DNA of 64,000 nucleotides from NCBI RefSeq assembly GCF_003337555.1, contig NZ_QPJK01000001.1:186001-250000 (forward strand), read 5' to 3'. The notes under the pieces were generated by a model that was given only the letters and a program-made list of their open reading frames with translations, searched no databases and was not told the DNA's origin. The translations under genes were made by a program, and so were the position numbers. Shown here in pieces: positions 16,445-26,650 of the stretch. The stretch is from Pseudorhodoferax soli (GTDB lineage Bacteria; Pseudomonadota; Gammaproteobacteria; Burkholderiales; Burkholderiaceae_C). Numbering within the stretch: the first letter of the stretch is position 1; each line of letters starts with the position of its first letter.

Positions 16445-18367
16445 ATGTCGATCTTTGCCCGTTACCAGGACCGATTCGAAGCCGCACAGGAAGAGGAAAT
16501 GTCGGTCCAGGAATACCTGGAACTGTGCAAGCGCGATCCGACCGCCTATGCCAGCGTTGCCGAGCGCATGCTGCTGGCGATCGGCGAATCGGAACTGGTG
16601 GACACGCGTACCGATCCACGCCTGTCGCGCATCTTCGCCAACAAGATGATCCGCGTGTACCCCGCCTTCCGCGACCTGTACGGCATGGAAGAGGTGATCG
16701 AGAGCATCGTGGCCTACTTCCGCCACGCGGCGCAGGGGCTGGAGGAGAAGAAGCAGGTGCTCTACCTGCTGGGGCCGGTGGGCGGCGGCAAGTCCTCGCT
16801 GGCCGAGCGGCTCAAGTACCTGATCGAGAAGGTGCCGTTCTACGCGATCAAGGGCTCGCCCGTGCACGAGTCGCCGCTGGGCCTGTTCGATGCGAACGAG
16901 GACGCCGGCATCCTCGAAGGCGATTACGGCATCCCGCGCCGCTACCTGTCCACCATCATGAGCCCCTGGGCCGTCAAGCGGCTGCAGGAGTTCGGTGGCG
17001 ACATCACCAAGTTCCGCGTGGTCAAGATCCGGCCCTCGGTGCTCAAGCAGATCGCCGTCTCCAAGACCGAGCCCGGCGACGAGAACAACCAGGACATCTC
17101 GGCCCTGGTCGGCAAGATCGACATCCGCAAGCTCGAGACCTATTCGCAGGACGACCCGGACGCCTATTCCTACTCGGGCGGCCTGTGCCTGTCCAACCGC
17201 GGCGTGCTCGAGTTCGTGGAAATGTTCAAGGCGCCGATCAAGGTGCTGCACCCGCTGCTGACCGCCACGCAGGAAGGCAACTACAAGGGCACGGAGGGCT
17301 TCGGCGCCATCCCCTTCGACGGCCTGATCCTGGCCCACTCGAACGAGGCGGAGTGGCAGGCCTTTCGCAACAACCGCAACAACGAGGCCTTCCTCGACCG
17401 GATCTACATCGTCAAGGTGCCCTACTGCCTGCGCGTGGCCGACGAGATCAAGATCTACGAGAAGCTGGTCGTCAATTCCTCGCTGGCGCAGGCGCCCTGC
17501 GCACCCGACACGCTGCGCATGCTGTCGCAGTTCTCGGTGCTCTCGCGCCTGAAGGAGCCCGAGAACTCGAGCATCTTCTCCAAGATGCGCGTGTACGACG
17601 GCGAGAACCTCAAGGACACCGACCCGCGCGCCAAGAGCTTCCAGGAGTACCGCGACTTCGCCGGAGTGGACGAAGGCATGACGGGCCTGTCGACACGCTT
17701 CGCGTTCAAGATCCTGTCGCGGGTGTTCAACTTCGACCACCGCGAGGTGGCGGCCAACCCGGTGCACCTCATGTACGTGCTGGAGCAGCAGATCGAGCAG
17801 GAGCAGTTCCCGCCCGAGGTCGGCGAGAAGTACCTGCGCTACATCAAGGAATTCCTGTCGCCGCGCTATGCCGAGTTCATCGGCAAGGAGATCCAGACCT
17901 CCTACCTCGAGAGCTACTCCGAGTACGGCCAGAACATCTTCGACCGCTACGTGGTGTACGCCGACTTCTGGATCCAGGACCAGGAGTACCGCGACCCGAA
18001 CACCGGCGAGATCCTGGACCGCGGCGCGCTCAACGACGAGCTCGAGAAGATCGAGAAGCCCGCCGGCATCTCCAACCCCAAGGACTTCCGCAACGAGGTG
18101 GTGAACTTCGTGCTGCGCGCGCGGGCCCGCCAGGACGGCAAGAACCCGGCCTGGACCTCCTACGAAAAGCTGCGCGCGGTGATCGAGAAGAAGATGTTCT
18201 CCAACACCGAGGAGCTGCTGCCCGTGATCTCGTTCAACGCCAAGGCCAGCGGCGAGGAGCAGAAGAAGCATGCGGACTTCGTGAACCGCATGATCACCAA
18301 GGGCTACACCGAAAAGCAGGTTCGCCTGCTCTGCGAGTGGTATCTGCGCGTACGCAAGTCCTCGTGA
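16445..18367 (+). CDS. prkA: PrkA-family serine protein kinase (YeaG-like)
   Basis: A 640-residue protein matching PrkA/YeaG. An AAA+-like N-terminal ATPase domain (Walker A LLGPVGGGKSSLAERL, about residues 108-124) is followed by the PrkA C-terminal kinase domain. The family is involved in starvation and nitrogen-stress adaptation in enterobacteria and in sporulation in Bacillus; both kinase and protease-like activities have been reported. The start has a strong ribosome binding site. It is followed after 12 bases by yeaH and then ycgB, the conserved three-gene arrangement seen across proteobacteria. Confidence 0.95.
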   Translation: MSIFARYQDRFEAAQEEEMSVQEYLELCKRDPTAYASVAERMLLAIGESELVDTRTDPRLSRIFANKMIRVYPAFRDLYGMEEVIESIVAYFRHAAQGLEEKKQVLYLLGPVGGGKSSLAERLKYLIEKVPFYAIKGSPVHESPLGLFDANEDAGILEGDYGIPRRYLSTIMSPWAVKRLQEFGGDITKFRVVKIRPSVLKQIAVSKTEPGDENNQDISALVGKIDIRKLETYSQDDPDAYSYSGGLCLSNRGVLEFVEMFKAPIKVLHPLLTATQEGNYKGTEGFGAIPFDGLILAHSNEAEWQAFRNNRNNEAFLDRIYIVKVPYCLRVADEIKIYEKLVVNSSLAQAPCAPDTLRMLSQFSVLSRLKEPENSSIFSKMRVYDGENLKDTDPRAKSFQEYRDFAGVDEGMTGLSTRFAFKILSRVFNFDHREVAANPVHLMYVLEQQIEQEQFPPEVGEKYLRYIKEFLSPRYAEFIGKEIQTSYLESYSEYGQNIFDRYVVYADFWIQDQEYRDPNTGEILDRGALNDELEKIEKPAGISNPKDFRNEVVNFVLRARARQDGKNPAWTSYEKLRAVIEKKMFSNTEELLPVISFNAKASGEEQKKHADFVNRMITKGYTEKQVRLLCEWYLRVRKSS

Positions 18368-18379
18368 GAAAGGCTTCCG

Positions 18380-19651
18380 ATGACCGTGCGCATCGTCGAC
18401 CGGCGTAACGACAGCAAGAACAAGAGTTCGGTCAACCGCAGCCGCTTCATCCGGCGCTTCAAGGGCCAGATCCGCAAGGCCGTCTCGGACGCGATCAACA
18501 AGCGTGGCCTCAAGGACCTGGACGAAGGCGAGAAGATCGGCATCCCCGGCAAGGACATCGACGAGCCGCAGTTCGAGCACGGCCGGGGTGGCGTGTGGGA
18601 CGCGGTGCGGCCCGGCAACGACCGCTTCAACGCGGGCGACCAGGTCGACCGGCCCAAGGGCGGCGGCGCTGGTGGTGGCGGCAAGGGCCAGGCCAGCAAC
18701 GAGGGCGAAGGCCTCGACGAGTTCGTCTTCACGCTGACCAAGGACGAGTTCCTGGACATCTTCTTCGACGAGATGGCCCTGCCCAACCTCGTCAAGCAGC
18801 AGCTGGCGCAGATCGAGCAGTACAAGCGCACGCGCGCAGGCTTCGTGCAGACGGGCGTGCCGACCAACGTCAACCTCACGCGCACCATGCGCGGCGCGGC
18901 GGGCCGGCGCATCGCCATCGGCGGACCCTATGCCACGCAGATGCGCGCGTTGGAAAAGGAACTCGCCGAGCTGCGCGAGACCCTGCCCGATGACCACCCC
19001 GAGGTCGAGCGCGTGCGCAAGGAGATCACCAAGCTCCGCGCCAAGATCGAGGCGATCCCCTTCGTCGACACCTTCGACCTGCGCTTCAACAACCGCGTGA
19101 AGACGCCCAAGCCGTCCACGCAGGCCGTGATGTTCTGCCTGCTCGACGTCTCGGGCTCCATGGACGAAGGCCGCAAGAACGTGGCCAAGCGCTTCTTCAT
19201 GCTGCTGTACCTGTTCCTGAACCGGAACTACGAGCACATCGAGGTGGTGTTCATCCGCCACCACACGGTGGCCAGCGAGGTGAGCGAGGAAGACTTCTTC
19301 ACCTCGCGCGAATCCGGCGGCACGGTGGTGTCCAGCGCGCTCACCTTGATGCACGAGATCGTCACGGCGCGCTATCCCAGCAGCCTGTGGAACATCTACG
19401 GCGCGCAGGCCTCGGACGGCGACAACTGGCATGACGATTCGCCGCGCTGCCGCGAGATCCTCGGCAACCAGATCCTGGAGCTCACGCAGTACTTCGCCTA
19501 CATCGAGATCACCGATGGCCCGCCGCAGAACCTTTGGGAGGAATACCTGAAGCTGCAGGAAGCCCATGCCGGACGCTTCGCGATGCAGCGCATCGCCAAC
19601 CTGGCCGACATCTACCCCGTGTTCCGCGAACTGTTCAAGCGCCGGGCCTGA
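18380..19651 (+). CDS. yeaH: YeaH/DUF444 protein with a von Willebrand factor A-like domain
   Basis: A 423-residue DUF444 protein. The N-terminus is basic (VNRSRFIRRFKGQIRK), with a Gly-rich linker around residues 95-110 (GGGAGGGGKG) and a C-terminal VWA-like domain with the MIDAS motif DVSGSMDEG (about residue 256). It is found with PrkA in nearly all genomes that carry it and is regarded as a partner in the same stress response, but its biochemical role is unknown. It lies 12 bases after prkA and 30 before ycgB, on one transcript by spacing. Confidence 0.93.
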   Translation: MTVRIVDRRNDSKNKSSVNRSRFIRRFKGQIRKAVSDAINKRGLKDLDEGEKIGIPGKDIDEPQFEHGRGGVWDAVRPGNDRFNAGDQVDRPKGGGAGGGGKGQASNEGEGLDEFVFTLTKDEFLDIFFDEMALPNLVKQQLAQIEQYKRTRAGFVQTGVPTNVNLTRTMRGAAGRRIAIGGPYATQMRALEKELAELRETLPDDHPEVERVRKEITKLRAKIEAIPFVDTFDLRFNNRVKTPKPSTQAVMFCLLDVSGSMDEGRKNVAKRFFMLLYLFLNRNYEHIEVVFIRHHTVASEVSEEDFFTSRESGGTVVSSALTLMHEIVTARYPSSLWNIYGAQASDGDNWHDDSPRCREILGNQILELTQYFAYIEITDGPPQNLWEEYLKLQEAHAGRFAMQRIANLADIYPVFRELFKRRA

Positions 19652-19681
19652 GCCCCTGCCCGGCCGCCACAAGGGAGACCC

Positions 19682-21217
<1,536 letters not shown>

Positions 21218-21234
21218 AGCCCCGCCTTTTTCCA

Positions 21235-21268
21235 AGCCCGGCCGGTTCGCAGGAACTTCGGCCGGGCT
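21235..21268. repeat. Strong inverted repeat after ycgB (terminator-like without U-tract)
   Basis: A 10-bp perfect stem AGCCCGGCCG/CGGCCGGGCT (21235-21244 with 21259-21268) is extended inward by a 4-bp GTTC/GAAC stem across a two-base bulge. It lies 17 bases after the ycgB stop and about 45 before the next operon. There is no T-run after it on either strand. It may protect the 3' end of the prkA operon mRNA or support factor-dependent termination. Confidence 0.55.
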
Positions 21269-21313
21269 GCCTCGTCTACCCGCAGTTCTCAGCCAACAGC
21301 CAGGAGCCTCCCG

Positions 21314-21814
21314 ATGCGACGATTGAACGTGAACGGTGTGCAACGCGAGGTCGATGTCGAGGACGACACCCCTCTCCTGTGGGTCCTGCGCGAGCAGCTC
21401 GGCCTGACCGGCACCAAGTACGGCTGCGGCATCGCAGCCTGCGGCGCCTGCACCGTGCACCTGGATGGCGTGCCCACGCGCAGCTGCGTGCGGCCCGTCT
21501 CCACGGTCGAGCCGACCGAGAAGATCGTGACCATCGAGGGCTTGTCGCCCGATGGCTCCCATCCGGTGCAGAAGGCCTGGGTGGCGCTGGACGTGCCGCA
21601 GTGCGGCTTCTGCCAATGCGGCATGGTCATGGCCGCCAGCGCCTTGCTCAAGACCAAGCCCAACCCCAGCGACCAGGACATCGACGAGGCCATCACGAAC
21701 ATCTGCCGCTGCGGCACCTACAACCGGGTGCGCGCGGCGATCAAGGCCGTCGCCCAGGGCAGCACCAAGTCGGCCGGACTGTCGATCCGCCATGTGGACG
21801 GGAGCGTGACATGA
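21314..21814 (+). CDS. (2Fe-2S) small subunit of a xanthine-dehydrogenase-family molybdenum hydroxylase (IorA-like)
   Basis: A 166-residue two-cluster iron-sulfur protein. The ferredoxin-type cluster is ligated by C38, C43, C46 and C58 (CGIAACGAC then C), and the second cluster by C97, C100, C131 and C133 (CGFC and CRC). This is the layout of the small subunit of isoquinoline 1-oxidoreductase, aldehyde dehydrogenase and related enzymes. It passes electrons from the Mo centre outward. It has no signal peptide and would be exported bound to its Tat-exported partner. It overlaps the large subunit by ATGA. It opens a six-gene block with sox-like genes. Confidence 0.92.
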
Positions 21815-24045
21815 GCGCCGCCCGGCCGCCCGAAGGCGCTCGCACCGCAGGCGAAGCCGCAGGTATCCCAGTGAGCATGGCCCTCGCCCCCACCCGCCGC
21901 CGCTTCATCGGCGGCACCGCGGCCACCGCCGGCGCGCTGGTCGTCGGCTTCCACGTCCCGCGCAAAGGCCTGGCGCAGACGCCACTGCCGGACGAGGTCA
22001 ACGCCTGGGTCGTCGTGAAGCCCGACGACACGGTGGTAGTGCGCATCGCACGCTCGGAGATGGGCCAGGGCACGCTGACCGGCCTGGCCCAACTGGTGGC
22101 CGACGAGCTCGACTGCGACTGGGCCAAGGTCACGACGGAATACCCGACACCCGGCCAGAACCTGGCGCGCCAGCGCGCCTGGGGCAACTTCTCCACGGGC
22201 GGCAGCCGCGGCATCCGCGAGTCGCACGACTACGTGCGCAAGGGCGGCGCCACGGCACGCGTGATGCTGGTGCAGGCCGCGGCCGACGGCTGGAAGGTGC
22301 CCGCCGCCGAATGCCGCGCGGCGAAAAGCGTCATCACGCACCAGCCGACAGGGCGCACCACGACCTACGGCAAGGTGGCCGCTGCAGCCGGCAAGCTCAA
22401 GCCGCCGGCGGACGTGCCGCTGAAGGACCCCAAGGACTGGCAACTCATCGGCAAGCGGCTGGCGCGGCTGGACACGGTGGAAAAGGTCACCGGCAAGCAG
22501 GTCTACGGCATGGACCTGCAGATGCCCGGCATGCTGAACGCCGCCGTCAAGGCCTGCCCGGTGTTCGGCGGCACGCTCAAGTCGTTCGACGCGGCCGCTG
22601 TGGAGAAGCGGCGCGGCGTCAAGAAGGTCGTGCGTGTGGGCGACAACGCGGTCGCCGTCGTGGCCGACACCTGGTGGCGCGCCAAGACGGCGCTGGACGC
22701 CCTGCCCGTGGAATGGGACTTCGGCCAGCACGCGCAAGCCTCCAGCGCCGGCTTCGCCGAGGTCATGAAGGCCGGCCTCACGGCCGAGCAGGCCGTGGTG
22801 GGCAACAGCAACGGCGATGCCAAGGCGGCCCTGGCCGGTGCGGCGCGCCGCATCGAGGCCGTCTACAGCTACCCGCACCAGAACCACGCGACCATGGAGA
22901 CCATGAACGCCACGGCGCGCTGGACGCCCGAGCGCTGCGAAGTCTGGACGCCCACGCAGAACGGCGAGGCAGCGCTTGCTGCCGCAGCCGAAGCCGCCGG
23001 CTTGCCCCCGGCGCAGTGCGAGGTCTACAAGATCCACCTGGGCGGAGGCTTCGGCCGCCGCGGCGCGGTGCACGACTGGGTTCGCCAGTCGGTGGCGATC
23101 GCCAAGCAGATGCCTGGCGTTCCTGTCAAGATGATCTGGTCGCGCGAAGAGGACATGCAGCATGGCCTGTACCACCCCATCACGCAGTGCAGGATGGTCG
23201 CCGGCCTGGACGCCCAGGGAGAACTGCAGGCGCTGCACATGCGCATCTCGGGCCAGTCCATCGTGGCCGGCATCTTTCCGCAGAACATCAAGGACGGGCG
23301 CGACCCCGTGGTGTTCCAAGGCCTCAACGCGCCGGGGCCGGAAGCCTCCATCGGCTACAGCGTGCCGCACCTGCTGGTCGACCATGCCATGCGCAACCCG
23401 CATGTGCCGCCCGGCTTCTGGCGCGGCGTGAACCTGAACCAGAACGCGATCTACCTGGAGTCCTTCATCGACGAGATCGCGCACGCCACGAAGCAGGACC
23501 CCCTGGCGCTGCGCCGCAAGCTCATGGCCCAGCATCCCAAGCACCTGGCGGTGCTCAACGCCGTGGCCGAGCGCGTGGGCTGGGGCAAGCCGGCACCGGC
23601 CGGCCGCTTCCGCGGCCTGGCGCAGACCATGGGCTTCGGCAGCTACGTGGCGGCCTGTGCCGAGGTCTCGGTCAGCGACGATGGCAAGCTCAAGGTGCAC
23701 CGCATCGTCGCGGCCACCGACCCGGGCTACGCCGTCAACCCGCAGCAGATCGAGGCCCAGGTCGAGGGCTCGTTCGCCTACGGCCTGTCGGCCGCGCTGT
23801 ACGGCGAGTGCACGGTGAAGGACGGGCGCATCGAGCAGGACAACTTCGCCACCTACCCGGTTCTGAAGATGGACGAGATGCCGGCGGTGGAGACCGTCAT
23901 CGTGCCCTCGGGCGGCTTCTGGGGCGGCGTCGGCGAGCCGACCATCGCAGTGGCCGCGCCGGCCGTGCTCAACGCCATCTTCGCCGCCACGGGCAAGCGC
24001 ATCCGCACGCTGCCGCTCAAGAACCACGACCTCAAGAAGGCCTGA
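21811..24045 (+). CDS. Molybdopterin-binding large subunit of a xanthine-dehydrogenase-family hydroxylase (IorB-like), Tat-exported
   Basis: A 744-residue catalytic subunit. A twin-arginine signal (TRRRFIGG, about residues 28-35, then an Ala/Gly-rich hydrophobic stretch) indicates periplasmic location. The mature part has the two Mo-binding domains: [18 protein letters not shown], the GGGFGRRGA loop, and the C-terminal GVGEPTIA with the presumed catalytic Glu (about 709). This is the single-chain IorB-type architecture, not cytoplasmic XdhB. The family hydroxylates N-heterocycles or oxidises aldehydes; the substrate here is unknown. Related enzymes usually have their own cytochrome c subunit; here the next gene is a SoxX-like cytochrome, overlapping by one base. 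Confidence 0.92.
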
Positions 24046-24473
24046 TGCGCGGCCTGCTGCCGCTGCTGCTGGCCGGCGCGGCGGTCGCCCAGCCGCTGGC
24101 GCCCTATGCCGTCGAGGGCGACGCCATCGCAGCGCCGCTCGCAGGCCTGGCCGGCGATGCAGCGCGTGGCCGCGCCATCGTCGCCAACCGCCAGCTCGGC
24201 CTGTGCCTGTTGTGCCATGGCGCGCCCATCCCCGAGGGGCGCTTCCAGGGCGATCTGGCGCCGAACCTGGCCGGCGCCGGCGCGCGCTGGAGCGCCGGCC
24301 AGTTGCGGCTGCGCCTGGTGGAGCCGCAGCGCCTGGTGCCCGGCACCATCATGCCGGCCTACCACCGCACCGCGGGCCTGCAGCAGGTGGGCACGGCCTG
24401 GCGCGGCAAGCCGCTGCTGGACGCGCAGCAGATCGAGGACGTGGTGGCCTACCTGTCCAGCCTCAAGGAGTGA
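24045..24473 (+). CDS. soxX: SoxX-like mono-haem cytochrome c
   Basis: A 142-residue secreted cytochrome. A short signal peptide ([16 protein letters not shown]) is followed by one haem site CLLCH (54-58) and a probable Met ligand in GTIMPAYHR. The segment PNLAGAGARWSAGQLRLR and the end IEDVVAYLSSLKE match SoxX. In thiosulfate oxidation SoxX pairs with SoxA to attach the sulfur substrate to SoxY. The ATG at 24045 overlaps the stop of the molybdoenzyme gene (TGATG), so it is tied to that enzyme. It may be the electron acceptor of the hydroxylase, of SoxA, or of both (inference). Confidence 0.88.
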   Translation: MRGLLPLLLAGAAVAQPLAPYAVEGDAIAAPLAGLAGDAARGRAIVANRQLGLCLLCHGAPIPEGRFQGDLAPNLAGAGARWSAGQLRLRLVEPQRLVPGTIMPAYHRTAGLQQVGTAWRGKPLLDAQQIEDVVAYLSSLKE

Positions 24474-24477
24474 CGTC

Positions 24478-24927
24478 TTGACCGTCTTCGACCCCCAACG
24501 CCGCCAAGCCCTGGCACTGGGCACGGGCCTCGCAGCCAGCCTGGTCGTGCGCCCGGGCGCGGCCGCCACGGGCGACCTGGCCGCCGCCATCGCCACGTTC
24601 ACGGGCGGCCGCACGCCAGAGCCGGGCCGCGTGCGGCTGGACATCTCCACGCTCGTGGAGAACGGCAACGCGGTGCCGGTCACGCTGTCGGTGGACGACG
24701 GCGTCGCACTGCCGCAGCTGCGCAGCCTGGCGCTGTTCAACGAACGCAACCCGCAGCGCGACGTGGCGCGCTTTCGCTTCGGCCCGGCCTCGGGCCGGGC
24801 CTGGGCCGCCACGCGCATCCGGCTCGCCACCTCGCAGAAGCTCGTGGCCGTGGCCCTGCTCGAAGACGGCTCGGCCTTCTCGCACACCGTGGACGTGGTG
24901 GTCACGCTGGCCGCCTGCATCGAATAG
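24478..24927 (+). CDS. SoxY-related carrier protein with AACIE C-terminal arm
   Basis: A 149-residue SoxY homologue. The N-terminus has RRQALALG followed by a hydrophobic Ala-rich signal, consistent with Tat export of SoxYZ. True SoxY ends in GGCGG, a flexible arm whose Cys carries the sulfur intermediate; here the end is TLAACIE, with the Cys third from the C-terminus (147). From memory, NCBI protein-family names include a SoxY-related AACIE arm protein, and this fits that group. The start is TTG at 24478, supported by a perfect AAGGAG seven bases upstream; no ATG fits. It is four bases after soxX and eight before soxZ. The cargo is unknown. Confidence 0.85.
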   Translation: MTVFDPQRRQALALGTGLAASLVVRPGAAATGDLAAAIATFTGGRTPEPGRVRLDISTLVENGNAVPVTLSVDDGVALPQLRSLALFNERNPQRDVARFRFGPASGRAWAATRIRLATSQKLVAVALLEDGSAFSHTVDVVVTLAACIE

Positions 24928-24935
24928 GAACCCGC

Positions 24936-25256
24936 ATGGCCCGTACCCTCATCCACGTGCCGCCCAGCGTGCGCCGCGGCGAGCCCTTCGAGGTGCGCAC
25001 CACGATCGCCCACCCGATGGAAACCGGCTACCGGCCGGACGAGAACGGCCGCGTGCTGCCGCGCGACATCGTCACGCGCCTGCAGTGCACGCTGGACGGC
25101 GCGCTCGTCTTCAGCGCCGACCTGTACCCGGCCATCGCGGCCAACCCCTATGTGGCCTTCCAGGTGCGCGCCGAGCGCAGCGGCGAGTTGCGCATCACCT
25201 GGGAGGGCGACAAGGGCTTCTCGCAGACCGAGACCATCGCCGTGCGCGTCGAATGA
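24936..25256 (+). CDS. soxZ: SoxZ-like carrier complex subunit
   Basis: A 106-residue immunoglobulin-like protein without a signal peptide, matching SoxZ in length and motifs: VRRGEPFEVRTTIAHPMETGYR, then ANPYVAFQVRA and the end GFSQTETIAVRVE. SoxZ forms a heterodimer with SoxY and is exported with it. Here its partner is the AACIE-type SoxY homologue. Its stop overlaps the soxA start (ATGA). Confidence 0.92.
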   Translation: MARTLIHVPPSVRRGEPFEVRTTIAHPMETGYRPDENGRVLPRDIVTRLQCTLDGALVFSADLYPAIAANPYVAFQVRAERSGELRITWEGDKGFSQTETIAVRVE

Positions 25257-26002
25257 GGGCTTGGCTCGTGTTGGCGCTGGTGTGTGCGCCTGCCGGCGCG
25301 CAGCAGGCACGCTCGGGCCTGGACTTCATGGGCCCGGCGACGCAAGCCATGCAGCGCGACGACAGCCAAAATCCGGCCATGCTCTGGCTGCACGAGGGCC
25401 AGGCGCTTTGGCAGAAGGCTGAAGGCCGCGATCAGCGCAGCTGCATGTCCTGCCATGGCGATGCGAGCCAGTCCATGCGCGGCGTGGCCACGCGCTACCC
25501 GGCTTTCGACACCGCCAGCCAAGGCCCGCTCAACCTGTCGCAGCGCATCGCGCAGTGCCGCGCACAACACCAGCAGGCCGCGCCCTGGGCGCCCGAGAGC
25601 GAGCCGGCGCTGAGCCTGGAGACCTATGTGGCCCAGCAGTCGCGCGGGCTGCCCATTGCGCCGCCCGACGACCCGCGGCTGGCACCGTTCATGGCGCGCG
25701 GCCAGGCCGCCTACGCGCGCCGAATCGGCCAGCTCGACATGTCCTGCGCCCAATGCCATGACGGTGCCTGGGACCGCAAGCTGGCGGGCAACCCCATCAC
25801 CCAGGGCCAGGCCACGGGCTACCCGATCTACCGGCTCGAATGGCAGGGCATGGGCTCCCTGCAACGCCGGCTGCGCAACTGCATGACGGGCGTGCGCGCC
25901 CAGGCTCCGCCCTTCGGCTCGGCCGAGCTGGTGGAGCTGGAGCTCTACCTGGCGCAGCGCGCGCGCGGCCTGCCGCTGGAGACGCCGGCCGTGCGGCCTT
26001 GA
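25253..26002 (+). CDS. soxA: SoxA-like di-haem cytochrome c
   Basis: A 249-residue secreted protein. A signal peptide of about 16 residues is followed by haem sites CMSCH (64-68) and CAQCH (165-169). C102 in LSQRIAQCR fits the Cys ligand of the first haem, and C210 in LRNCMTGVRA matches the active-site Cys (modified to a persulfide in studied SoxA), so the sulfur-transfer centre looks intact. In the Sox pathway SoxAX oxidatively couples thiosulfate to SoxY. It ends the coupled block; neither SoxB nor SoxCD is next to it. Confidence 0.92.
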   Translation: MRAWLVLALVCAPAGAQQARSGLDFMGPATQAMQRDDSQNPAMLWLHEGQALWQKAEGRDQRSCMSCHGDASQSMRGVATRYPAFDTASQGPLNLSQRIAQCRAQHQQAAPWAPESEPALSLETYVAQQSRGLPIAPPDDPRLAPFMARGQAAYARRIGQLDMSCAQCHDGAWDRKLAGNPITQGQATGYPIYRLEWQGMGSLQRRLRNCMTGVRAQAPPFGSAELVELELYLAQRARGLPLETPAVRP

Positions 26003-26101
26003 GCTTGAAGCCTCGCGCCGCATGGTGCTTTCGACGGCCTGCCGCTGGCCGCCCAGCACAATAGCCAGCCCGCCCACGCCGTTCTGCCGGCTCCGCCTGC
26101 C

Positions 26102-26650
26102 ATGCTCCTATCCCGTCGCCACTGCCTTCTCGCCCTCGCCACCTTGCCGGCCGTCGGCCATGCGGGCTTCAACTTCTTCACAGGGGAGTACACGGCCAGC
26201 CACACGGAATTGCAGGCGCTCGTGGAGCGGCAGTTTCCGCTGGAGCAGCGCTATGCCGAGATCTTCCGCGTGCGCCTGCAAGGGCCGCGGCTGGGCCTCA
26301 ACGCGAGCGCCCAGCGCACGGCCATCACGGCAGCGCTGTCCATTGCCAGCCCCTGGCTGCGTGGCGGCCAGGTGGACGGCACGGTGGCCATGGGCAGCGC
26401 GCTGCGCTGGGACGCTGGCGCCCGCGCGCTGCGGCTGGACCGCCCCAGCGTGGAAAGCCTGGATCTGCAGGGCCTGCAAGGTGGCGACGCCGAGCGGCTG
26501 CGCCGCATCGCCACCGTGGTGGCGCAGGAACTGCTGCACGGCCACGTGCTGCGCAGCTTCACGAAGGAAGAGATGACGGTGGGACTCAAGACCTACGAGG
26601 TCGGCGCGATCACCGTGCTGGACGACGGTATCAAGATCCAGCTGGAATGA
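26102..26650 (+). CDS. DUF1439 (YceB-like) exported protein
   Basis: A 182-residue protein with an N-terminal signal peptide (SRRHCLLALATLPAVGHA) and a body resembling the DUF1439 family, of which E. coli lipoprotein YceB is a member. I see no lipobox Cys at the cleavage site, so it is probably soluble periplasmic. It follows soxA after 99 bases on the same strand; whether it belongs to the sox-like operon is unclear. Its function is unknown. Confidence 0.75.
   Translation: MLLSRRHCLLALATLPAVGHAGFNFFTGEYTASHTELQALVERQFPLEQRYAEIFRVRLQGPRLGLNASAQRTAITAALSIASPWLRGGQVDGTVAMGSALRWDAGARALRLDRPSVESLDLQGLQGGDAERLRRIATVVAQELLHGHVLRSFTKEEMTVGLKTYEVGAITVLDDGIKIQLE

Follow-up and report, generated by a model that had tools for sequence, protein, structure and literature searches.

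The window analysed here, a stretch of 64,000 nucleotides from Pseudorhodoferax soli (contig NZ_QPJK01000001.1, positions 186,001 to 250,000), contains a six-gene operon at 21314-26002 on the + strand. Its genes run head to tail and encode the (2Fe-2S) and molybdenum (Mo) subunits of a xanthine dehydrogenase (XDH)-family hydroxylase, followed by SoxX, SoxY, SoxZ and SoxA. These six genes form a conserved, co-inherited unit. Together they probably make up an oxidation system of their own that awaits characterisation.

Every reading frame of the operon was verified. The first gene (21314-21814, +) encodes a (2Fe-2S) subunit of 166 amino acids, with the Pfam domains Fer2_2 and Fer2 and no apparent signal peptide. 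An ATGA overlap links it to the gene for the Mo-binding subunit (21811-24045, +), a protein of 744 amino acids with a twin-arginine signal (TAT_signal_seq), the domains MoCoBD_1 and MoCoBD_2, and an active-site glutamate in a GVGEP motif (Glu709, codon 23935-23937). The MoCoBD domains, this glutamate and two 2Fe-2S clusters place the pair in the XDH family. Through a TGATG junction follows soxX (24045-24473, +), coding for a monoheme cytochrome c (CLLCH, Met103) that scores 69.5 bits with TIGR04485 (cut-off 61). After a 4-base gap, soxY (24478-24927, +) has a TTG start and encodes an N-terminal RR motif and the carrier Cys147 (codon 24916-24918); its product is over the cut-off for Pfam SoxY. 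A gap of 8 bases separates it from the gene of its partner SoxZ (24936-25256, +; TIGR04490 80.7 bits, cut-off 76), and a second ATGA overlap joins soxZ to soxA (25253-26002, +). SoxA is a diheme cytochrome c (CMSCH and CAQCH; TIGR04484 223.5 bits, cut-off 110) with a C-terminal Cys210 (codon 25880-25882). An earlier reading of this DNA (the original prediction) had proposed the same six identities, overlaps and gaps, and the reading frames and hidden Markov model (HMM) scans bear them out.

The SoxY protein is of an unusual type. Its top NCBIfam match is TIGR04487, 'SoxY-related AACIE arm protein', at 164.3 bits, just under the cut-off of 172, and its C-terminus, LAACIE, carries the arm after which this family is named. 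The operon contains no gene for a flavin adenine dinucleotide (FAD) subunit and none for a multi-heme cytochrome c, and the Mo protein has no heme motif. Three terminator-like sites were found in 21150-26150, every one on the - strand. Where the Mo gene meets soxX, the TGATG junction is too tight to hold a terminator, so that, judged from the sequence, transcription is not expected to stop there. All six products are expected in the periplasm, given the twin-arginine signal of the Mo subunit, the RR motif of SoxY and the heme motifs of SoxX and SoxA; the (2Fe-2S) subunit, judging from known relatives, would reach this compartment by co-export with the Mo subunit.

Conservation of the gene order was analyzed in a sample of 399 genomes from the order. 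Sixty-seven genomes with the SoxY variant (TIGR04487, E-value up to 1e-30) were counted as bearers; 24 of these exceed the cut-off of the family itself, and the window genome lies below it. We fetched all 74 SoxY-variant loci that lie outside the window genome. The Mo gene was within the fetched stretch in 66 of them, of which 37 had all six genes and 26 had only the (2Fe-2S)-Mo-SoxY-SoxZ or Mo-SoxY-SoxZ genes, some being cut by contig ends. The best 80 relatives of the Mo protein, taken from the top of the matches listed, were recovered with the Mo protein alone. SoxY was present in 73 of these 80 loci, which places the arrangement far beyond chance, and all six genes were present in 69, bearing out the co-occurrence of the hydroxylase pair with SoxX, SoxY, SoxZ and SoxA that the original prediction had proposed to look for. 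Five of the seven loci without SoxY were cut by contig ends, and two (L142 and L178) were truly devoid of sox genes within 7 kb. Moreover, pairwise distances between Mo proteins from 118 loci correlate with those of the (2Fe-2S) subunit (r=0.78), SoxX (0.60), SoxY (0.65), SoxZ (0.63) and SoxA (0.54), the permutation maximum being 0.18.

The record titles of the relatives span Burkholderiales, Hyphomicrobiales (Bosea, Microvirga, Enterovirga) and relatives of Roseomonas. The gene order is thus not unique to this strain, and its wide occurrence rules out a strain-specific oddity. Plasmids of Methylobacterium, Neorhizobium galegae and Roseomonas marmotae hold clusters with identical order and an FAD-dependent oxidoreductase at the expected flavocytochrome position; on the N. 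galegae plasmid the Mo gene is missing from the annotation table and was detected by HMM. Of 398 genomes sampled across the phylum, 29 matched the SoxY family (E-value up to 1e-35). Twenty stretches were fetched from the 32 matches: eight contained all six genes, and 12 had no Mo gene. SoxB was nearby in all 12 of the latter, indicating canonical clusters caught by the family model. Finally, clustering of the neighbouring genes revealed no additional gene as frequent as the six, and a flavoprotein with a small cytochrome was the one recurrent pair that was followed further.

A few loci have a different layout. In L104, L105 and L108, the Mo and (2Fe-2S) genes are on the strand opposite to SoxXYZA, so linkage persists there without co-transcription. 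In L059 (7956-12880), tandem Mo subunits of this family, 51% and 49% identical to the window protein, stand beside SoxXYZA. In L151 (9581-14301), about 4.7 kb of other genes lie between SoxX and SoxY of the cluster.

Residue conservation was assayed over the 119 loci that combine a Mo gene with SoxY and SoxA (window included; the loci are not all independent). The SoxY carrier cysteine was present in 119 of 119, in an arm that mostly reads [AS]AC[ILVT][ED]. SoxA retained both heme motifs in all 119 loci, Cys102 in 117, Cys210 and Arg206 in 118 each, and Arg236 in 116. The first of these heme motifs was absent from all nine canonical-type SoxA loci compared. Cys210, which we take to be the persulfide cysteine, aligns with the conserved C-terminal cysteine of the solved chains 1h31 and 2c1d. 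The heme motif and methionine of SoxX and Glu709 of the Mo subunit were both invariant (119/119), and cysteines 38, 43, 46, 58, 97, 100, 131 and 133 of the (2Fe-2S) subunit were retained in no fewer than 146 of the 148 linked loci. With these SoxXA and SoxY residues kept, the loading machinery looks intact, beyond the needs of a mere electron wire. The closest solved chain to the Mo protein was 8gy3_C, the membrane-bound aldehyde dehydrogenase of Gluconobacter, both by sequence (E-value 7e-70) and by fold (template modelling score 0.77, from a model of mean predicted local distance difference test score 76 built on 16 sequences, with weak stretches, some of them near conserved motifs).

The original prediction had SoxB and SoxCD missing, with the Mo hydroxylase in their place. 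Beside the cluster this holds, since the window translations show no adjoining soxB- or soxCD-like frame, and the hydroxylase does stand where the known system has SoxB and SoxCD. Elsewhere in the 8.16 Mb genome both are present: a full canonical sox cluster, at about 903-910 kb of a different contig (G000:C2), contains soxB, X, A, Z, Y (GGCGG arm), D and C. As this cluster comes with X, Y, Z and A genes of its own, those of the window are paralogues, which speaks against use of their products by the conventional operon, and a remnant of the canonical operon is ruled out.

By gene content, SoxB and SoxCD are dispensable for the module. Among 30 named cluster genomes, hand-picked from the best 80, mostly isolates and of unstated completeness, 21 had neither SoxB nor SoxC and nine had both; an accessory strictly tied to SoxB/SoxCD is ruled out by these 21. 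At this locus, the named relatives closest to the window genome are two strains of Pseudorhodoferax, Leaf265 and Leaf274, with 97-98% identity in the Mo protein. Leaf265 has SoxB and SoxC; Leaf274, at 97% identity to the window protein, has neither. Over the curated cut-offs, the 67 order bearers comprised 48 with SoxB, 38 with SoxC (window genome included) and 65 with SoxA. One of the 19 bearers without SoxB over the cut-off, G393, has a SoxB fragment, and the two without SoxA over the cut-off (G210 and G330) have loci cut by contig ends. SoxA was present elsewhere in all 24 genomes whose Mo-linked loci are solely of the (2Fe-2S)-Mo-SoxY-SoxZ kind. SoxXA thus seems to be needed by the module.

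SoxXA and flavocytochrome c sulfide dehydrogenase (below, flavocytochrome c) are almost always present in bearer genomes. The latter was found in 60 of 67 bearers of the order sample versus 126 of the 332 genomes without the SoxY family, in tests that ignore shared ancestry. In SoxB-less genomes the counts were 17 of 19 bearers versus 39 of 195 others, and at the genus level 26 of 27 cluster genera versus 53 of 132 others. The six-gene form was assigned to 42 genomes: in 37 the locus is complete, and in five (G210, G242, G330, G357 and G382) it is truncated or only partial within the fetched stretch. Of these 42, 41 carry flavocytochrome c, the exception, G376, being among the 37. When the gene is not linked to the cluster, it usually stands at another place in the genome; in a separate test, all 21 bearers examined carry it, some as a linked gene. 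SoxB, too, goes with flavocytochrome c, being present in 130 of its 186 carriers (uncorrected for shared ancestry).

Of the 80 named loci, 22 have an FccB-like flavoprotein gene near the cluster, accompanied in 19 cases by a small cytochrome c; among the 74 order loci, two have one (L040 and L041). In the phylum sample, seven of eight six-gene loci have one. Within clusters these genes mostly stand either directly 3' of SoxA or in the interval from the Mo gene to soxX, and the three FccB-like proteins scanned against Pfam were all flavocytochrome c sulfide dehydrogenase. In the 30 named genomes, SoxB was present in only one of 19 with in-cluster flavocytochrome c and in eight of 11 without it, as if flavocytochrome c replaced SoxB. 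The order sample does not follow this pattern, since L040 and L041 are both in SoxB genomes. Group g242 is also off the pattern: it has in-cluster flavocytochrome c, yet its member G709 has SoxB beside a second SoxY locus. No replacement is therefore concluded. In the window genome the FccB-like gene (L265 7422-8762, on G000:C9) is unlinked to the cluster. There and in Leaf274 (L266), a gene that we take to be rpoC-like lies near it.

The history of the Mo subunit was followed with a FastTree phylogeny of 169 Mo proteins, in which groups were labelled by SoxA and SoxYZ only. The SoxYZ-linked proteins form one clade (162 rows, local support 98). One SoxYZ-linked row, L102, lies outside, next to long-branch outgroup rows. 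The form with (2Fe-2S), Mo, SoxY and SoxZ genes and no SoxXA (L052, L056, L057, L060, L064, L070 and others) falls mostly into a separate Mo clade (19 rows, support 100). Its SoxY arm often ends in CG, nearer to the canonical arm, and a few members keep AACLE. From these arms, the SoxY of this form looks as though it may be serviced by canonical SoxXA. In one genus (g90; L072 1041-2832 and L084 13030-14446), an XYZA locus with an AACIE-like SoxY has no Mo hydroxylase and has SoxCD-like genes a few kb off; genomes of this genus also hold a (2Fe-2S)-Mo-SoxY-SoxZ locus elsewhere.

Some relatives of the Mo subunit have no Sox partners at all. Five are Rhizobiaceae loci (L255 8056-11178; L258, L259, L261 and L263) on Sinorhizobium/Rhizobium plasmids, with Mo proteins 65-69% identical to that of the window and a monoheme cytochrome c gene preceding the (2Fe-2S) and Mo genes. 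Near some of these loci there is a two-component system or a sorbosone-dehydrogenase-like gene. The Sox-less Mo gene of L142 encodes a protein 80% identical to that of the window and comes from a metagenome bin titled Bordetella parapertussis, a title that is probably wrong.

How might such a module work? We tentatively favor, at somewhat less than an even chance, a stand-alone periplasmic oxidation module derived from Sox that would oxidize a sulfur compound while it is bound to the carrier. In a two-electron step, SoxXA would attach this compound, which is probably an organic thiol or something like it, through a disulfide to the cysteine of SoxY. The AACIE arm would then present the bound group to the Tat-exported (twin-arginine translocation) Mo hydroxylase, which would hydroxylate one of its carbons, and the two electrons from this reaction would leave via the (2Fe-2S) subunit, with SoxX/SoxA or a different cytochrome c as acceptor. 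An exit through SoxX/SoxA, which the original prediction had proposed, is plausible. The oxidized carbon part would be released, and the residual carrier persulfide, or sulfide from it, would be oxidized by flavocytochrome c. Such a route would need neither SoxB, for sulfonate hydrolysis, nor SoxCD, for sulfane oxidation. The Mo family argues for a carbon substrate, its nearest solved enzyme being an aldehyde dehydrogenase.

Several observations weigh against this reading. Eight of the 74 SoxY-variant loci had no Mo gene in the fetched stretch, although one of them (L054) holds a Mo fragment and another (L091) starts close to the contig start. Flavocytochrome c was not found in seven of the 67 bearers. 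Bearers have SoxB more often (48 of 67) than the other order genomes do (137 of 332, shared ancestry uncorrected), so some link with canonical Sox is possible. Seven Sox-less Mo rows, namely the five Rhizobiaceae, L142 and L178, are nested inside the SoxYZ-linked clade. The Mo enzyme can thus exist without the carrier, at least after loss, which argues against an obligatory carrier and leaves a substrate carried on the SoxY arm, as first proposed, a supposition. We also infer, rather than observe, both the substrate and the contact between the Mo subunit and SoxYZ. Overall, the earlier interpretation, which did not include the flavocytochrome c partner, is partly supported.

Three other explanations were weighed. 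The hydroxylase could be an ordinary aldehyde or N-heterocycle oxidase with SoxX/SoxA as its acceptor instead of a multi-heme subunit, SoxYZ being a passenger or having a side job. This agrees with 8gy3_C as the nearest solved enzyme, with the three heme motifs carried by each of the window-genome Mo paralogues L123 and L126, and with the single monoheme cytochrome c that accompanies the Sox-less Rhizobiaceae enzymes. However, the (near-)invariant cysteines of SoxY and of the SoxA C-terminus are not expected of a mere wire, and the (2Fe-2S)-Mo-SoxY-SoxZ form retains SoxYZ and drops the adjacent SoxXA, the reverse of what is predicted. As the co-occurrence of flavocytochrome c is also left unexplained, we consider this account rather unlikely. 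An inorganic variant, in which the hydroxylase replaces SoxCD on a carrier-bound sulfane from sulfide or thiosulfate and yields sulfur or another product without SoxB, appears quite improbable. It would explain the retained SoxXA and SoxY residues, flavocytochrome c as a frequent companion and the enrichment of bearers in SoxB genomes, but it fits the enzyme family poorly: XDH-family enzymes act mostly on carbon, and the copper-cysteine motif of carbon monoxide dehydrogenase was not seen at PPGFWRGV, which we take to be its position. In addition, many named bearers have no SoxB/SoxCD. According to a Bradyrhizobium diazoefficiens study, only soxY1, at the canonical locus, is essential of the two soxY genes for thiosulfate oxidation (PMC5748708), and a soxY2 mutant exists according to work that it cites; soxY2 may belong to the present cluster.

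In the last explanation, the Sox proteins would serve the enzyme and not its substrate. XDH-family enzymes require a Mo=S ligand in terminal position. A SoxY persulfide made by SoxXA and flavocytochrome c could insert or restore this sulfur, or reactivate the Mo enzyme, in the periplasm, and the true substrate would then be an ordinary aldehyde or heterocycle. Such a sulfur relay accounts for the retention of only the persulfide-forming half of Sox, with SoxB and SoxCD allowed to be absent, for the co-occurrence of flavocytochrome c, and for a Mo enzyme that sometimes manages without Sox. It counts against this relay that molybdenum enzymes are not known to be sulfurated in the periplasm; nor, to our knowledge, has a role in Mo=S maturation been assigned to Sox proteins. 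Moreover, XDH-family genes are numerous in the window genome (22 matches to one domain), and no sox genes were seen beside the five others examined (L123-L127). A precedent is offered by SoxYZ-like carriers that, together with a SoxH-like protein and another with a rhodanese domain, are found next to pyrroloquinoline quinone (PQQ) alcohol dehydrogenases (PMC12997753). Altogether, we regard the relay as unlikely and retain, as the favored reading, the oxidation of a carrier-bound sulfur compound.

The module resembles several known systems in part. Like canonical Sox of Paracoccus and relatives, it has SoxX, SoxA with heme and C-terminal cysteines, SoxZ, and a SoxY with a C-terminal carrier cysteine. 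However, canonical SoxY ends in a GGCGG arm, whereas the window SoxY ends in AACIE and reaches only 83.2 bits with TIGR04488 (cut-off 125), and the canonical SoxB and SoxCD have no counterpart in the operon, which has the molybdenum hydroxylase instead. In the canonical pathway SoxAX conjugates, SoxB hydrolyses and SoxCD oxidises, as described in PMC5336275. With IorAB and the membrane-bound aldehyde dehydrogenase 8gy3 (PaoABC being more distant), the operon shares the 2Fe-2S subunit, the Tat-signal Mo subunit, the MoCoBD domains, the GVGEP glutamate and the lack of an FAD subunit; those enzymes have a multi-heme subunit, in place of which the operon has SoxXA and SoxYZ. The quinoprotein dehydrogenase-associated SoxYZ-like carrier (TIGR04557; ped cluster) likewise ties a SoxYZ-type carrier to a non-Sox periplasmic dehydrogenase. 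In that system, according to PMC12997753, a PQQ alcohol dehydrogenase is served by a carrier in which SoxY and SoxZ form one fused protein, whereas the window genes are separate, and window SoxY and SoxZ score only about 45 bits each with TIGR04557 (cut-off 140). As for FccAB/SoxEF, the clusters of several lineages include an FccB-like flavoprotein, which a small cytochrome usually accompanies; in the window genome FccB is unlinked.

The SoxY variant is already named by NCBIfam, and this name (that of TIGR04487) is present in two annotated cluster-bearing plasmids, but neither a function nor a partner enzyme was seen to go with it. For the system itself, no description of the Mo-SoxXYZA unit was found in the open-licence literature, in agreement with the original prediction of an undescribed system; the same literature yielded no paper that pairs SoxY with AACIE, SoxYZ with 'xanthine dehydrogenase family', or soxA, soxX and soxY with isoquinoline. 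Sequences that lack a GGC motif were removed from a survey of SoxY diversity published in 2024 (PMC11237559), a filter by which most of the AACIE-type variant would be dropped. In a SAR324 study, flavocytochrome c is proposed to work with an incomplete Sox system of SoxYZ only, and SoxYZ and isoquinoline 1-oxidoreductase are named in separate sections (PMC4782131). A Polynucleobacter genome paper lists Pnuc_1154-1157 as a third SOX cluster with sulfur oxidation unconfirmed (PMC3308952); these genes may be the present cluster.

Sox genes widely serve as markers of thiosulfate oxidation. In many bacteria, among them Duganella, Massilia, Bosea, relatives of Roseomonas, Methylobacterium and Neorhizobium, a soxXYZA set belongs to a separate module without SoxB/SoxCD, so it may be mistaken to claim sulfur oxidation where the evidence is limited to soxA, X, Y or Z. 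Should the mechanism hold, the module would provide a route by which an organic sulfur compound is oxidized on a carrier or, on the alternative of a sulfur relay, a new way of servicing a molybdenum enzyme outside the cytoplasm. Leaf265, with canonical Sox, and Leaf274, in which none was found, belong to one genus and make the module directly testable.

Two further gene groups were noted. Upstream of the cluster, at 16445-21217 of the window, lies what we take to be a prkA-yeaH-spoVR set, for which no link to the cluster was seen. On another contig of the window genome (L128 3937-5737, G000:C13), a second SoxC-like gene stands with a monoheme cytochrome, away from the canonical cluster, and possibly encodes a sulfite dehydrogenase.

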